A stretch of DNA of 64,000 nucleotides from NCBI RefSeq assembly GCF_900109525.1, contig NZ_FOAN01000003.1, positions 62,001-126,000 on the forward strand, given 5' to 3'. The DNA is from Allobosea lupini (GTDB lineage Bacteria; Pseudomonadota; Alphaproteobacteria; Rhizobiales; Beijerinckiaceae). Both the position numbers and the translations under genes were made by a program. Below the pieces are notes generated by a model that searched no databases, was not told where the DNA came from, and saw only the letters and a list, made by a program, of their open reading frames with translations. Shown here in pieces: positions 52,017 through 59,744 of this stretch (positions are counted from its first letter, which is position 1; every line of letters starts with the position of its first letter).

Positions 52017-54278
52017 TTATTGCAGCCTGACCGATACGCTCTCGCTGGCGCCGGCGGCATCGATCACCGAGATGCGCACGAAGCCCTTGCCGGGCGGCTG
52101 CCAGGCGGCCTCGCGGCGCTTCACCGCCGCCATCACCGGCGCGCCGTCGACCAGCCAGGTGAACGGCGCGACGCCGCCGGAGACCTTGAGGTTGAGCTGC
52201 GGCGCACCGTCGACCGCCGAGGCGGAAAGATCGATCTTCGCACCCTCGGGCGGGAAGGCGAGCTTGAGGCCCGGCGTCGCCAGCGCGGCTACCGTCTTCG
52301 GCACGTCCTGGCGCAAATGCCGCAGCGGAGGCGGCAGGGTCGCGCTGCTGGCCGAGATTGTCCCCGGCGGCTGTTCGAAGGGCCGCGGATCGAGGCCGAT
52401 GCGGGCGAAGGCGTCGAACAGGATCGGAGCCGCGACGACGCGCCCGACGAGGCCGGGCACCGCGCCATTGTCGGGCCGGCCGACCCAGACGCCGATGGTG
52501 TGCTTGCGGTCGAAGCCGACCGCCCAGGCGTCGCGATAGCCGTAGGAGGTGCCGGTCTTGTAGGCGATCCGGCCGGGCGGGGCGTTGAGCGGCGGCGGCG
52601 CACCGAGCAGCGTATCGGCGACATACCAGGCGGCGACCGGTTCGACGAGACGCAAGGGCGGCTCGATCACGCCGCTCGCCGACTTTACATGCAGCGGCAC
52701 GACTTCGCCGCCGCGGGCGAGGCCGACATAGAGCCGGGTCAGGTCGGAGAGGGTGATGCCGAGGCCGCCGAGGCCGATGGCGAGGCCGGGTGCGCCGCCA
52801 TCCCTGGGCATGGCGATGGCGGCGCCGGTATCCTTCAGGCGCGACAGGAAGCGCTGCGGACCGACTGCCGATAGCAGTTCCACCGCCGGCAGGTTGAGCG
52901 AGAGCTGCAGCGCCTTGCGGGCGCTGACCATGCCCTGGAAGCCGAGGTCGAAATTCTCGGGAACATAGAGGCCGTAGCGGGTCGGCCGGTCCTCCAGCAT
53001 GGTCTCAGGATGGGCGAGGCCGTTGTCGAAGGCGAGCGCATAGATAAAGGGCTTCAGCGCAGAGCCGGGGGAGCGCAGCGCCTGCGTCAGGTCGAGCGAG
53101 CCGGCGCGCCCGGCGTCGAAATAATCGACGCCGCCGACCGAGGCGCGGATATCGCCGGTCTCGTTATCGGCGACCAGGATGGCGATCGAGAGCTGCGGGC
53201 CCTGGCCGATCGCGCGCTCGCGGGCGAGCTGCTCCAGGCTCGCCTGCCAGCGGGCATCGATGGTGAGGCGCTGGCTGCGCTGCTCCGGGGCCTCGGCGAC
53301 GACCTGTTCGGCCGTGTGCGGTGCGAGGTTCGGGAAGGGCTTTCGCGCGGTCGGCACCGGCTCTTCGCGTGCGGCGGCAACCTCGTCAGAGGTCGCGAGC
53401 CCGGCCGCCTCGACGCGGGCTAACACACGCTCGCGGGCCTTGCGCGCGGCTTCCGGGAAACGGTCGGGCCGGCGCGTCTCCGGCGATTGCGGCAGGGCGA
53501 CCAGCAATGCGGCTTCCGCGGTCGAGAGCCGCTTTGGCTCCTTGCCGAAATAGGCGAAGCTCGCGGCGCGCACGCCCTCGAGATTGCCGCCGAAGGGAGC
53601 GAGCGTCAGGTAGAGGTCGAGAATCTGCGTCTTGCTGAAGCGCTGCTCCAGCTCGATCGCGCGCACCGCCTGCCTGAGTTTGGCTGCGAGCGAGCGCTCT
53701 TGGCGCGGTTCGAGCAGGCGGGCGACCTGCATGGTCAGAGTCGAGCCGCCGGAGACGATGCGGCCATTCGCCAGCATCTGCCCCGCGGCGCGCAAGGCGC
53801 CGAGCGGATCGATGCCGGCATGCTGATCGAAGCGCTTGTCCTCGAAGGCCTTGAGCATGGAAAGGTAGCGCGGATCGACGTCATCGGCGCCGACCGGCAG
53901 CTTCCAGCGCCCGTCCGCGGTGACGAAGGGGCGCAGCAGCTTGCCCTCGCGGTCGAGCACCACGGTCGAGCGGTCGCGGGCGGCGGTAAAATCGATCGGG
54001 GGCAGGGTGGAGGCGTACCAGAAGAGGGAGGCGGCGGTGGCCGCGGCCAGCGCACCGACGCCGAGGCCGGCATAGGCAAGCCGGCGCGGCCAGACGCTCT
54101 TCCCTTCTCCCCTCGGGGGAGAAGGTGTCTGCGGAGCAGACGGATGAGGGCCGCGCGACTGGGTGAGGCAGTTGTCAGCTTGCGCCTGACTTCCCTCATC
54201 CGTCAGCGCTCCGCGCTGCCACCTTCTCCCACGAGGGGAGAAGGAAGAGGCGTTTCGCTCGTCCGGCCCCGGCTTCAC
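52017..54278 (-). CDS. pbpC: Penicillin-binding protein 1C (PbpC) with repeat-derived N-terminus
   Basis: A 753-residue bifunctional peptidoglycan synthase. After a membrane helix (about residues 66-86) come the transglycosylase domain with catalytic Glu in KAFEDKRFDQHAG and GGSTLTMQVARLLEP, and the transpeptidase domain with SALK (SxxK), SLN (SxN) and YKTGTSYGYRDAW (KTG). A PbpC-type C-terminal domain ends it. The GTG start at 54278 has GAGGTGA nearby and lies five bases after the alpha-2-macroglobulin stop. Residues about 12-59 are encoded by a palindromic repeat (see findings). Confidence 0.9.
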   Translation of the reverse strand: MKPGPDERNASSFSPRGRRWQRGALTDEGSQAQADNCLTQSRGPHPSAPQTPSPPRGEGKSVWPRRLAYAGLGVGALAAATAASLFWYASTLPPIDFTAARDRSTVVLDREGKLLRPFVTADGRWKLPVGADDVDPRYLSMLKAFEDKRFDQHAGIDPLGALRAAGQMLANGRIVSGGSTLTMQVARLLEPRQERSLAAKLRQAVRAIELEQRFSKTQILDLYLTLAPFGGNLEGVRAASFAYFGKEPKRLSTAEAALLVALPQSPETRRPDRFPEAARKARERVLARVEAAGLATSDEVAAAREEPVPTARKPFPNLAPHTAEQVVAEAPEQRSQRLTIDARWQASLEQLARERAIGQGPQLSIAILVADNETGDIRASVGGVDYFDAGRAGSLDLTQALRSPGSALKPFIYALAFDNGLAHPETMLEDRPTRYGLYVPENFDLGFQGMVSARKALQLSLNLPAVELLSAVGPQRFLSRLKDTGAAIAMPRDGGAPGLAIGLGGLGITLSDLTRLYVGLARGGEVVPLHVKSASGVIEPPLRLVEPVAAWYVADTLLGAPPPLNAPPGRIAYKTGTSYGYRDAWAVGFDRKHTIGVWVGRPDNGAVPGLVGRVVAAPILFDAFARIGLDPRPFEQPPGTISASSATLPPPLRHLRQDVPKTVAALATPGLKLAFPPEGAKIDLSASAVDGAPQLNLKVSGGVAPFTWLVDGAPVMAAVKRREAAWQPPGKGFVRISVIDAAGASESVSVRLQ
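54103..54244. repeat. Palindromic repeat, CCTTCTCCC-type, inside pbpC coding sequence
   Basis: A 142-bp inverted repeat: ends CCTTCTCCCCTCGGGGGAGAAGG and CCTTCTCCCACGAGGGGAGAAGG (each 23 bases with internal dyads) and matching inner arms GACGGATGAGGG / CCCTCATCCGTC. From memory this CTTCTCCC...GGGAGAAGG element is common in Hyphomicrobiales. It is translated in frame as pbpC residues 12-59 on the minus strand. Confidence 0.8.
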
Positions 54279-54282
54279 GAGA

Positions 54283-57200
54283 TCACCTCGCCGACGAGAT
54301 CTCGATCGTGCCGAAGCCTGTCCGGCCGAAGCGGTCTGGCCGGTACATGTCCTCGATCACTGCCGCCGGCGCGACATAGCGGCCGGGCGAGACGGCCCGG
54401 GCGATATAGGCGACCGTGTAGCCCAGCGGGTCGTTCTTGCCGCCGCTGCGTTCGAAAGCCGCGACGAAGCGGTCGTCACGCGCTTCGGTATGCACCGGCG
54501 AGACCTCCTGCTTCAGCCAGTTGAGACCCTCGACCGAGGCGCCTTCGGTCAGCTTGGCGTTCTCGATCTCGAGGCCGGCCGGAACCGGGTCGACCAGCAG
54601 CAGCCGGCCATAGCGCGCCGCCGGCTCGGTCACCTTGAGCGCAACGACATAGCGCTCGTTCTGGCGCAGGCGCGCAGGATCGACCCGCTCGCCCTTCATG
54701 GTGAAGAGCGTGCGCTCCAGTCCGAAGCCCTGGTTGAGCGCCGGCTCCGGTGTCGCCGGGATGCCCGAGACGGTGATCACGGCATTAGCGGAGGCGGTGC
54801 CGGGATTGCCGATCACCACGGGCTTGGCCTCCAGCGAGGCCTGCGGGATCGTGCGGTAGAAGGCGCCCTTGCGCTCGGTGCCGTCGACGGTCAGCGACAG
54901 ACCCTCGGCGTCCTTGGCCATCGCCGCGGCCGCCATCGCCATCCACATGTTCTCCTGCGTCGAGGTGTAGCGCGCATTCTGGCGCGCGCTCTGCACGACG
55001 TCGGCAGCGCGGGAGAGATCGGCACGCTCGCCATTGCTCTCGGCGATCAAGGTCAGGATGCCGGCGCCGTCGCGCAGCCGCGAGCCGTAATCGGGGCGCG
55101 AGAGGCCGTCATCGCTCGCCTGCTGCAGCGTTCCCAGTGCGCTGGTGAAGGCGGCCCGGCCGCGGGTGCGATCGCCGAGCAGGGAGAGCGCGGCGCCGAT
55201 CTGGGCGCGGGCGAGGGGGGAGCCGAAATCGCCGAGCTTGTTGTCGGCGAGATAGCGCAGATCGCCCATCACCGGGCGGCCGTTGCGGGCGAGCACGTAG
55301 AGGGCATAGGCGATGCCGGCCGCCTCCTCCTTGTTGATCTCGCTGGTGTTGACGACCTGGTTGCGCAGGCGGTCGAGCGCCATGTTGAAGGCGGTCTGCG
55401 GCACCGCGAACTGGCGCTCGCGGGCGCGGGTCAGGAAGTCGGTGACGAAGGCGTCGAGCCAGAGATCCTCGCCGCCAACACCCCAGAGGCCGAAGGAGCC
55501 GTTATTGCCCTGCCGGGCGAGCACGCGTTCGATTGCGGCGGTCACGCGCTCGTCGGCATTGCCGTCGAGCGCCAGCTGCTCCATCGAGGCGAGCCGGTTC
55601 ACGACGAGCAGCGGCAGCGCCCGGCTGATCGTCTGCTCGGTGCAGCCATAGGGGTAGCGGTCCAGCGCCTTCAGCACCGCCGCGACGTCGAGCGCCGCGA
55701 CCGGCGAGACCGAGACGGAGACCGCGCCGGAATCGGGCACTAGATCGGCCATCAAGTCGGAAGAGACGGTGAGTGAGCCGCCGCCCGGAATCGGGCGCAC
55801 GATCCGGCGCGCGATCGTCTGAGTCGAGGGCTGCACGCGCACGGCGAGGTTCTGCACCGTGCCGATGCCGTTGGGACCGGTGACCTTGACGTCGAACGAG
55901 GCCCGCCCAAGCCCGGCGGCGGTCACGGGAATTGTCAGCGAGCTCTTGGCGCCGGCCGCCATGGTCATGCTGCGGCGGGTCGCATCGGCGGCGACGACGA
56001 CCGGGCCCTTGACGTCGAGATCGACGAGATAGGAGCCGGCCGGCCCCTCGACATTGTCGATCTGCAGGTGGAAGCGCGACTGGTCGCCGAGCGCCAGGAA
56101 GCGCGGCAGCGTCGCCTGCGCCACGATCTGGTCGCGCACGAAGACGTCGGCGCTGGCCTGGCCGGTGCGGCCGGCACTCCAGGCCACGGCCATGACGCGG
56201 ACTGAGCCGTTGAAGGCCGGCAGTTCGAAGTCGACCTTGGCGGTGCCGTCCGGGCCGAGCTTGACCACGCCGGAATAGCGCGCAAGCGGCTCTTGCGTCG
56301 GCGCCTCGCCATTGAGCTGCGGGGCGGCGTCGCCGCCGGAGCGGATCGCGCCACGCGCGCCCTGCATGCCATCGATCAGATAGCCGTAAAGATCGCGCAA
56401 TTCATGGCCGAGCTGGCGCTGGCCGAAGAAGTACTTGCTCGGATCGGGGCTCTCGAAGCGGGTCAGGTTGAGGATGCCGATATCGACCGCAGCGACGGTG
56501 ATGAAGGCGTCCTCGCCTGCTTTCGCGCCGGTGACCTTGACGGGGAGCGACAAGGTCGAGAGCGGGCGCACCAGGTTGGGCGCCCCGAGGTCGATCGCGA
56601 GGTTGCGTTCGTCCTTGCCGACGCTGAACCAGGCGAGGCCGATGGCGCGGCCGGGCATGCGCTGCGCAGCGGTATCCATCGGGCGATGGGCGAGCACGAC
56701 GAGATAGGCGCTGGCACCCCAGTCCGACTTGGCGGGGATGGTCACGGTCGTGCCGTTGGCGGGCACGTCGACGGTGCGGATCTCGGCGACGCGGTCGCTC
56801 ATCACTGCGAGCGTCGCCTTGCCGGCGAAGCGCGGAGTGAGACGCACCTGCATGCTCTCGCCATTGGCGTAGGACGGCTTGTCGAGGGCGACGTCGAGCA
56901 CATCGGGCTGGTCGGCGGTCTTGTCGGTCTCGTAGCCGACAGTGAAGGAGACGCTCGTCTCGGTCGCCTCGGCGCCGTCGGCGCTGACGTCGAGCCGGTA
57001 ATTGCCCCATTGCACCGGCGCGGCGATGCGCGCCGGCGTGGCCTCGGCGACGGCGATCTCGCCATCGGCAACGCGGCGGGTCGTCTTCACGCCCTCATAG
57101 TTCCAGCGGCCGTCCTGGTAGAACCACTGATAGTTGCGGCTGACCTTGGAGAGCGTCCATTTGACGCCCTGGCGGGCGATGCGGCGCCCGTCGCCCTGGG

Positions 57201-59529
57201 CCATGATCACGTCGAAGGTCGCGGTCTGGCCGTTGCCGAGCTCGCCCTCCTTGAAGGCCTTGCGCACGCCGATGGCGGCGCCCTTCGGCACGATCGGCAG
57301 CGTGAGCGAGCGGGCGATGGCGCGCCCGCCGGGCTCGCCGACACGCACCGTCAATTCGACCTCGAGCGGGCGGTTGGTCTCGGGCTGGGCGACGGGATTG
57401 GCGATCGTGACCTTGCCGTCGGCGCCGGTCTTGGCGGCGTCCTCGAACTCGCTCTGCTGCGGCTCGAAGGCCTCGTCGGTCAGGCCGACCTCGTAGCCGG
57501 AGAAGCCGGGGATCGCGGTCTGCGCTGCCGAGCGCACGGTCATCGAGCCGGTGACGTCGAGATCGGAGCCGGGCGCGCCGTACAGATAGCGGGCGTTGAC
57601 GTCGATCTCGGCCGGCTCGCCGGCCTGCAGCACCTGCTTCTTCGGTGCGAGGGTCAATTCCAGCCGCTCGGGGACATAATCCTCGACCAGGAAGGAGACC
57701 TCGCCGATCGCGGCGCCCTTCGGGTCGGAATAGGCCTGGACGCGCCAGGTGCCGGTCTGGGCACCGGAGATCAGCGGGATCGAATGGGCTCGCCCGCCGG
57801 CGCCCTGGTCCTCGACCTGGCGGCGGCGGTACTCGACGCCGTCCGGCCGCCTGACGACGAGCGTCAGCGGCAGGCCGGAGACGGCGGCGCCTTTGGCGTC
57901 GCGCAGCAGCGTCGTCAGATAGACCGTCTCGCCGGAGCGATAGACGCCGCGCTCGGTATAGAGGAAGGCGTCGAGCCCCGTCGGAGCGACGCGGCCCTTC
58001 ACGCCCCGATCGGAGAGGTCGAACGCGGTCTGCTTCAGGTCGAGGAAGCCGTAATCCTCGGCGACGCTGGCGGTGACGAGGCCGGGCGCATTGCCGCCCT
58101 GGCCCTTGCCGAGGGCCGCGTCGAAGCGGGCATAGCCGTTGGCGTCGGAGCGGACGGTCGCCAGCACCTCGTTGTTGCGGGCGATCAGGCGCAATTCCGC
58201 ATTGGCGACGGGCGCGGCGTCGGCGAGCGAGCGCACCAGCACATGCACGCCATCCGGGCCGGAGAAGGAGGTCAGGCCGAGATCGGAGACGACGAACCAT
58301 TGCGTCGCGCGGGTCGTGCCGTCGTCATAGTCGCCATCGCTGTCGGACGAGCTTGCAGTTCGCGTGCTGCCGGTCGGCTTGGCGAACATGACGTAGACGC
58401 CAGGCTGGAGCCGGCCGACCGCTTCCAGCACCGGGAAGGCGGTGGTGACGTCCTTGTTGAGCTCGGACTTCACCGCCATCGTGCCCTTCCAGACGCTCGC
58501 GCCCTTGTCCGAGGCGATCTGGCTGGCGTTGTAGCTGCCGAGCTGGCTCAGGAAGTCGTCGGAATGGACCGAGCCGATCAGGTTGCGGTCGCCGATGCGC
58601 ATCACTTCGAGATCGAGGCTATCGGCATTGACCGAGACGACCGGCACGCCCTGCTGGCCGGTGCGCGGCAGGACGTAATTCTTGCCGGTGAAGCGCACGG
58701 AGGGGGCGCGATCGCGGACATAGACCTCGTAATCGGCCGATTTCAGCAGCTTCTCGTCGGGGATGGCCGAGGGCACGCCCTGGCGGATCACGAAGCCATA
58801 GCGCTCGCCATGGCGCAGGCCGTCGACGCAGAGCTGGCGCTCTTCGCCGCTGACGGCGAAATCACCCTTGCCGGTGATGGCGACGTAAGGCGCGAAGTCG
58901 ACGCGGCCGCGCGAGAGCGGTTCGGAGAACTCGAAGCAGGCGCGTGGGCTCGCCGCGTCGGAATCGACCTTGTTTGAGAGAAGACGGAAACCGCGCTGGG
59001 CCCGCAGCGCCTCGTAATCGGTGCGCAGCGAGGCGTTGTCGGAAAGATCGAGGCTGAGCCGATAGGTCGTCAGCGCCGGGCGCCAGAGCTCGTGCTTCTC
59101 GAAGACGCGGGCGAGCACGCCGAGCGAGGAGGCCTCGTCCGGGCGCGAGGTCGAGCGCTGATAAGCGAGATAGGCGGCGCTGATCGCCCGCTCGCGCAAT
59201 TCGTAGCGCTCGCGATAATCGCGCGGCTCGATGCCGCTCGCCGCCTGCGCCATCAGGCGCCAGCCGCCGGGATTGGTGGGATCGGCGACCGCTGCGGCAT
59301 TGGCGAGCGGCAACGCTGCGCGGGCGTCGCCGCGATTGAGGGCCGCAGTGCCGTCGCGCAGCAAGGTGGCGAAGGGGCGTTGGCCGACCGAGACCTCGCG
59401 CTTCAGCCGCTCCTCCAGGCGCTGCCCGTCGCTGGCGAGATCGGGCCGCACATAGGCCTTCTGCGCGAAAGCGGGTCCGGCGGCGACAGTCAGGCCGAGC
59501 AGTAGGGCGAGACGGACGAGATGGCGCAT
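54283..59529 (-). CDS. Bacterial alpha-2-macroglobulin (YfhM-like)
   Basis: A 1748-residue periplasmic protein with signal peptide MRHLVRLALLLGLTVAAGPAFAQK and many macroglobulin beta-domains (for example GVYRSGETVYLTTLLRDAKGAAVSG at the middle). The thioester motif YGCTEQ sits near residue 1295, able to trap attacking proteases covalently. There is no lipobox Cys, unlike E. coli YfhM. It is paired with pbpC, the usual arrangement, with five bases between stop and start. ATG 59529 is chosen for the signal peptide; the frame extends to 59688 without coding character. Confidence 0.93.
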   Translation of the reverse strand: MRHLVRLALLLGLTVAAGPAFAQKAYVRPDLASDGQRLEERLKREVSVGQRPFATLLRDGTAALNRGDARAALPLANAAAVADPTNPGGWRLMAQAASGIEPRDYRERYELRERAISAAYLAYQRSTSRPDEASSLGVLARVFEKHELWRPALTTYRLSLDLSDNASLRTDYEALRAQRGFRLLSNKVDSDAASPRACFEFSEPLSRGRVDFAPYVAITGKGDFAVSGEERQLCVDGLRHGERYGFVIRQGVPSAIPDEKLLKSADYEVYVRDRAPSVRFTGKNYVLPRTGQQGVPVVSVNADSLDLEVMRIGDRNLIGSVHSDDFLSQLGSYNASQIASDKGASVWKGTMAVKSELNKDVTTAFPVLEAVGRLQPGVYVMFAKPTGSTRTASSSDSDGDYDDGTTRATQWFVVSDLGLTSFSGPDGVHVLVRSLADAAPVANAELRLIARNNEVLATVRSDANGYARFDAALGKGQGGNAPGLVTASVAEDYGFLDLKQTAFDLSDRGVKGRVAPTGLDAFLYTERGVYRSGETVYLTTLLRDAKGAAVSGLPLTLVVRRPDGVEYRRRQVEDQGAGGRAHSIPLISGAQTGTWRVQAYSDPKGAAIGEVSFLVEDYVPERLELTLAPKKQVLQAGEPAEIDVNARYLYGAPGSDLDVTGSMTVRSAAQTAIPGFSGYEVGLTDEAFEPQQSEFEDAAKTGADGKVTIANPVAQPETNRPLEVELTVRVGEPGGRAIARSLTLPIVPKGAAIGVRKAFKEGELGNGQTATFDVIMAQGDGRRIARQGVKWTLSKVSRNYQWFYQDGRWNYEGVKTTRRVADGEIAVAEATPARIAAPVQWGNYRLDVSADGAEATETSVSFTVGYETDKTADQPDVLDVALDKPSYANGESMQVRLTPRFAGKATLAVMSDRVAEIRTVDVPANGTTVTIPAKSDWGASAYLVVLAHRPMDTAAQRMPGRAIGLAWFSVGKDERNLAIDLGAPNLVRPLSTLSLPVKVTGAKAGEDAFITVAAVDIGILNLTRFESPDPSKYFFGQRQLGHELRDLYGYLIDGMQGARGAIRSGGDAAPQLNGEAPTQEPLARYSGVVKLGPDGTAKVDFELPAFNGSVRVMAVAWSAGRTGQASADVFVRDQIVAQATLPRFLALGDQSRFHLQIDNVEGPAGSYLVDLDVKGPVVVAADATRRSMTMAAGAKSSLTIPVTAAGLGRASFDVKVTGPNGIGTVQNLAVRVQPSTQTIARRIVRPIPGGGSLTVSSDLMADLVPDSGAVSVSVSPVAALDVAAVLKALDRYPYGCTEQTISRALPLLVVNRLASMEQLALDGNADERVTAAIERVLARQGNNGSFGLWGVGGEDLWLDAFVTDFLTRARERQFAVPQTAFNMALDRLRNQVVNTSEINKEEAAGIAYALYVLARNGRPVMGDLRYLADNKLGDFGSPLARAQIGAALSLLGDRTRGRAAFTSALGTLQQASDDGLSRPDYGSRLRDGAGILTLIAESNGERADLSRAADVVQSARQNARYTSTQENMWMAMAAAAMAKDAEGLSLTVDGTERKGAFYRTIPQASLEAKPVVIGNPGTASANAVITVSGIPATPEPALNQGFGLERTLFTMKGERVDPARLRQNERYVVALKVTEPAARYGRLLLVDPVPAGLEIENAKLTEGASVEGLNWLKQEVSPVHTEARDDRFVAAFERSGGKNDPLGYTVAYIARAVSPGRYVAPAAVIEDMYRPDRFGRTGFGTIEISSAR

Positions 59530-59744
59530 GGCTCGGTCTCCGAAAAGGCGGGCGGCAGGATACTGGCGGCAGCAGGCGGCGACGCGATGACGGGTCATCA
59601 CATTGCGCTGCGCGAAGCTAGCACCGGGCGCGTCGGGCGCAACTCGGCTTGCGATCAGTTGAGCCCTTCTCGCCTCTTGCCTCCGCAACGAGGCTGACGC
59701 TGAATGGCGCCGCGTCGCGGCGCGGTCTGGATGAGGAGAAGGTC

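Follow-up and report, generated by a model that had tools for sequence, protein, structure and literature searches.

Palindromic Repeats within and behind Genes

The mosaic repeats RIME, ABC, and BIME, which are made up of exchangeable palindromic units, are described as intergenic. Other palindromic repeats lie within protein genes. The Rickettsia palindromic elements (RPEs) of Ogata and Claverie, which are around 100–150 bp long, are found there in frame and are tolerated, and N-terminally decorated proteins of R. conorii have been reported as expressed (PMC3733652, PMC2229807). The CGTC-tagged REPs described by Di Nocera (2013, PMC3733652) consist of two hairpin units that are inverted relative to each other; they are located just behind the 3′ ends of ORFs, and some are intragenic. 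The CGTC superfamily includes, by assignment, RPE-4 and RPE-6. One case has been reported in which different REPs occupy roughly the same place, in recB of two Xanthomonas species (PMC3733652).

In-frame palindromes, in the form of RPEs or intragenic REPs, are therefore already known. What is new here is the genus-wide replacement of palindromes from several families at a single junction, that between a2m and pbpC in Bosea, with the reading frame almost always kept, plus a rule of position that explains it. An old question is whether REP-like repeats serve the genes that they follow. This junction amounts to a natural replicate experiment in which one position has been occupied by at least four unrelated families of palindrome, and in which the constraint of the frame allows the retained and rejected insertions to be counted. 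It also shows how tight packing of genes turns a repeat at a gene end into protein sequence, and it is relevant to the long-held suspicion that N-terminal REPs are mere annotation errors.

The Repeat in pbpC of Allobosea lupini

The window (the whole stretch of 64,000 nucleotides that was analysed) contains, on the minus strand at 52017–54278, the 753-aa gene pbpC, the product of which is penicillin-binding protein 1C (TIGR02073, E 5e-208). Its GTG start codon (54276–54278, minus strand) lies 7 nt past the first nucleotide of the upstream gene's stop codon (54285–54283), which is itself overlapped by a Shine-Dalgarno-like sequence, GAGGTGA (54283–54289, minus strand). The upstream gene, listed as an ORF of 1801 aa (54283–59688, minus strand), is one that we take to be a bacterial alpha-2-macroglobulin gene (a2m); its 3′ end is the landmark that adjoins the repeat, and its C-terminal homology adjoins pbpC in relatives as well. 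In a predicted structure model, PbpC has a transmembrane helix at residues 63–91 (54006–54092, minus strand), and residues 1–60 are disordered with a pLDDT of about 33, the model being a modest one (mean pLDDT 62).

An earlier note on this DNA had described a 142 bp inverted repeat between the GTG and the helix, a frame left open through it to give residues 12–59, and the lack of a good in-frame start between repeat and helix. The repeat, which belongs to the family that we term F1 (ends CCTTCTCCC/GGGAGAAGG), is indeed present at 54103–54244 on the minus strand, the ORF 52017–54278 runs across it in the frame of pbpC, with residues 12–59 encoded by the repeat, and no ATG, GTG, or TTG occurs in frame in this window from the repeat to the end of the membrane helix. 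The description of the repeat as a palindrome holds insofar as it is an inverted repeat, but it is not one perfect palindrome: two copies of a unit of around 50 nt, inverted with respect to one another (54244–54193 and 54150–54103), flank a 42-nt centre. The left unit (54193–54244, minus strand), which is the inverted R unit, contains the terminal hairpin CCTTCTCCC/GGGAGAAGG, a small hairpin with the stem AGCGC/GCGCT, and GGATGAGGG; the right unit (54103–54150, minus strand) contains CCCTCATCCG, a small hairpin with the stem TCTGC/GCAGA, and again the terminal hairpin. Hence, the stems of the small hairpins differ between the two units, and across copies of the unit this stem has undergone compensatory changes (18 cells altered on both sides, which 0 of 500 shuffles reach); the terminal hairpin CCTTCTCCC..GGGAGAAGG is conserved across unit copies. 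The dimer of hairpin units in inverted orientation, with its pairing maintained, is a trait of REP/BIME-type repeats.

The element has a predicted folding energy of −105.6 kcal/mol (z = −9.9 relative to shuffled sequence), and chance would not account for the presence of its two 23-nt hairpin motifs in the window, since they arose in 0 of 100 shuffles. A search of the genome with the F1 repeat gave 72 DNA matches (both strands and half elements being counted), the element in pbpC belonging to a set of dozens of related copies that this Bosea genome contains. A search of Rfam with the F1 element gave only chance-level matches, none of which was above the gathering score, and an unpaired CGTC or GTAG tag is absent from the F1 element of the window.

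The element resembles an RPE in being an in-frame palindrome inside a protein gene and in having many related copies in the genome; this likeness is one of arrangement. RPE insertions are, however, scattered over many genes and positions, whereas the pbpC junction has been reoccupied by unrelated families, and, unlike RPEs, only the pbpC copy among the F1 and F2 copies inspected clearly runs into a coding frame. Indeed, when the genus was searched with the peptides encoded by the repeat, many other copies were found, and of the ten that were inspected, the coding score of the downstream frame was strong for pbpC alone and was negative, near zero, or weak for the rest.

Several Families at One Junction

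The comparison covered the pbpC loci from 36 Bosea genomes and from further named records. In almost all Bosea species, a palindrome is present at the a2m–pbpC junction, and these palindromes come from at least four different families, some of them nested. F1 is found in a few close relatives of the window genome. F2 (CCCTCTCCC..CTCATCCG..CTTCTCCC), which has the R unit in common with F1, is the commonest family at the junction; this sharing of exchangeable palindromic units makes F1 and F2 similar to RIME, ABC, and BIME in organisation. F3 begins with CTCCCCTCCCC.., and F4 (CGTCATTCTCGGG..CCCGAGCATGACG) is a CGTC-type REP that begins with CGTCAT. F4 (CGTCAT...ATGACG) thus fits the CGTC-tagged type and resembles the CGTC superfamily, whereas F1, F2, and F3 begin with neither CGTC nor GTAG. 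Some F2 elements contain extra palindromes nested inside them, also in frame (G020, G008, G033, G002, and G013), and in-frame, shortened remnants occur in G017 and in Bosea sp. WAO (L204).

When the family present is placed on a tree of the neighbouring proteins, at least 12 changes are needed, or 10 when F1, F2, and the remnant count as a single state. If recombination has spread in-frame alleles, the independent insertions could be fewer than parsimony indicates; this may be the case for G003, the sister of G000, which carries F3 and in which the helix junction is unlike that of its sisters.

No repeat is present at the junction in Bosea G011 (L058, which matches L184 from Bosea sp. Leaf344), in three deep-branching members of the genus (L061–L063), or in most of the outgroups. 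In these relatives, the pbpC start is within about 0–25 nt of the a2m stop, with the helix a short way beyond, so that a start adjoining this stop is conserved whether or not a relative carries a repeat. This indicates that the ancestral gene already began there and that the repeat entered coding sequence; as with RPEs, an in-frame insert in a conserved gene is accompanied by homologues that lack the insert. The comparison of relatives that the earlier note had proposed therefore gave the result that it had anticipated, the extension being either absent (L058/L184, L061–L063, and outgroups) or different and made from another repeat, and the single later start conserved among relatives that would have spoken against its reading was not found, since the relatives have no later start codon in common. 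Its central reading, that an in-frame palindrome extends the protein, is supported by these comparisons; what it had missed was the occupation of the junction by several families and the habit that these repeats have of lying behind 3′ ends.

Preservation of the Frame and the Position of the Start

The a2m stop and the helix are at least 100 nt apart in 54 distinct loci. Of these, 50 have an open pbpC frame, compared with 19 and 6 for the other two frames. Of the four loci in which the pbpC frame is not open, one has its stop before the start codon (L038), two are outgroups with ordinary spacers (L214 and L227), and only the fourth, L163 from Bosea sp. Root483D1, is a real break, in which the element introduces an in-frame TAG. 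It is possible that a GTG within that element serves as a new start. This break implies that an intact frame is not an absolute requirement. Elsewhere in the genome, the lengths of copies from these families fall into all three residue classes modulo 3, and the probability of a copy being at once frame-preserving and open is about 0.11 for F1/F2, 0.22 for F3 (based on three copies only), and 0.15 for F4. A frameshift is present in the pbpC of G029 (L035), right after the membrane helix and outside the repeat, and this gene is either a pseudogene or affected by a sequencing error.

One alternative is that the repeat is extragenic, that pbpC really starts downstream of it, and that the open frame is an artefact of annotation. 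Misannotation is, according to PMC3733652, the explanation for most N-terminal REPs, and the situation does exist in this genome: L002, which at 89% is the closest match among the remaining copies, is followed by an ABC-transporter gene with a good ATG past the repeat. This locus illustrates the extragenic arrangement and was for that reason rejected as a second N-terminal case. Moreover, elements of the F4 type bring an ATG of their own. In all 13 F4 loci at the junction, the element ends in an in-frame ATG, and the part upstream of that ATG need not be translated in these loci. In Bosea, however, the frame is kept genus-wide and across families, the repeat-free relatives start beside the a2m stop, and downstream starts are absent in many genomes: in 15 of the 31 non-F4 loci, including the window, there is no ATG, GTG, or TTG from the repeat to the end of the helix, and in most of the remaining non-F4 loci, the sole candidate starts fall inside the helix. 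An extragenic repeat at this junction is consequently improbable.

The donation of a start codon by a repeat may be seen at another locus, L131:1501–1580 (G000, C6:33216–33295), where a CGTC-type repeat ends in ATGACG. A TPM-domain protein with a signal-peptide-like N-terminus probably starts at this ATG.

The earlier note had also suggested that the repeat could fold the mRNA and cut translation. In a simple fold, the predicted accessibility of the ribosome-binding region is 0.38 with the element and 0.38 without it, and masking of the ribosome-binding site by the element is not supported by this prediction.

Location behind the 3′ Ends of Genes

Where do these repeats normally lie? In this genome, 52 of the 63 sampled repeats of these families are located within −10 to 30 bp of the 3′ end of a gene (gene ends being called by a simple codon score), with a median of 8 bp, compared with 3.8% of random positions in the same loci. 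A location just behind the 3′ ends of genes is characteristic of REP/BIME-type repeats, and it explains the presence of such a repeat inside pbpC, the start of which adjoins the a2m stop.

Two control genes, each of which is followed by an F1 repeat in this genome, were used to examine the orthologous 3′ ends in congeners. Inspection of the sequences revealed a palindrome in most of the congeners, the type varying from one to another; a motif count gave only 7 of 22 and 9 of 23, these values being low because other types of palindrome are absent from the motif list. The idea that the pbpC junction is a lone hotspot was therefore dropped, since the control 3′ ends turn over in the same way and pbpC is not singled out. 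Across Bosea species, the 3′ ends of these two unrelated genes (L240–L261 and L270–L292) bear differing palindromes, which include types outside F1–F4, such as GGCAGTCGGCAATAGGCAGTCGG.

The element in pbpC is probably a 3′-end palindromic repeat of the REP/BIME type that is translated because the next gene starts at the upstream stop. In this genome, such elements are found about 8 bp behind the stop codons of genes and, given that in the a2m–pbpC operon pbpC starts about 0–25 nt from the a2m stop, an element inserted behind a2m would land between the pbpC start and the helix. Retention would then be limited to elements, nested insertions, and deletions that leave the frame intact. The outcome would be a disordered cytoplasmic tail of 20–110 residues on PbpC, the amino-acid sequence of which is not conserved, and the elements at the site are replaced over time by those of other families, via either new insertions or local recombination. 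Direct support for this explanation comes from the position of the repeats, the open frame, the repeat-free relatives with the same start, the turnover of several families, the gene-end rule, and the lack, in many genomes, of any start farther downstream. Translation of the tail itself is what the sequence would predict.

Start-codon capture, in which an old intergenic repeat was later included when pbpC was extended upstream through it, would agree with the normal location of such repeats between genes but is very hard to credit, since the repeat-free, deep-branching members and the outgroup families already have the early start, with just a short stretch ahead of the helix, which leaves little intergenic space for it.

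Conservation of the Hairpin and of the Peptide

In four species, pbpC contains an F1 copy, which allows the substitutions to be compared. Within the repeat, there is no excess at third positions (e.g., 2, 3, and 1 or 5, 4, and 3 substitutions at positions 1, 2, and 3, respectively), and replacements outnumber silent changes; in a2m and the remainder of pbpC, by contrast, silent changes predominate. By inspection, the arms of F1 are nearly invariant between the four species, and most of the substitutions are in the 42-nt centre (54151–54192, minus strand). This pattern indicates that the hairpin and the frame have been kept but the peptide has not.

G014 gives no usable comparison for the core of pbpC, since the gene is split there: residues 4–534 and 535–753 match the distantly placed C1:4555867–4557459 and C1:1897986–1898642, respectively. 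The distance between the two halves suggests a rearrangement through the gene.

It might be argued that the translated tail has been selected for a function in the PbpC protein, such as the binding of a cytoplasmic partner, because some tail is retained, with its frame preserved, in most Bosea species. This is very unlikely. The sequence, length, and family of the tail change freely, with the excess of replacements in the repeat described above; the tail is disordered in the prediction; tailless species exist (G011/L184); and a similar turnover of palindromes occurs at other 3′ ends without the involvement of any protein. The tail would rather appear to be tolerated by PbpC than to benefit it, and any function would be expected to reside in the hairpin behind a2m, as in the protection of the 3′ end of the mRNA or the tuning of the operon. 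A more specific suggestion, which we offer tentatively and which may well be wrong, is that the palindrome behind the a2m stop is selected as a regulatory or mRNA-end element that is indifferent to sequence, such that any one of several unrelated families of hairpin could serve and pbpC would translate whichever is the occupant; the same replaceable, gene-end palindromes would then lie behind many Bosea genes.

The Junction outside Bosea

In a record titled Microvirga terricola (L176), PbpC shares 80% identity with its Bosea counterpart and lacks the repeat; this may be either a misnamed record or a transferred locus. In some Methylobacterium and Methylorubrum (L212, L222, L225, L229, and L237), the a2m–pbpC junction is occupied in frame by other large palindromes, of types unseen in Bosea, with predicted folding energies of the junction sequence down to −159 kcal/mol.
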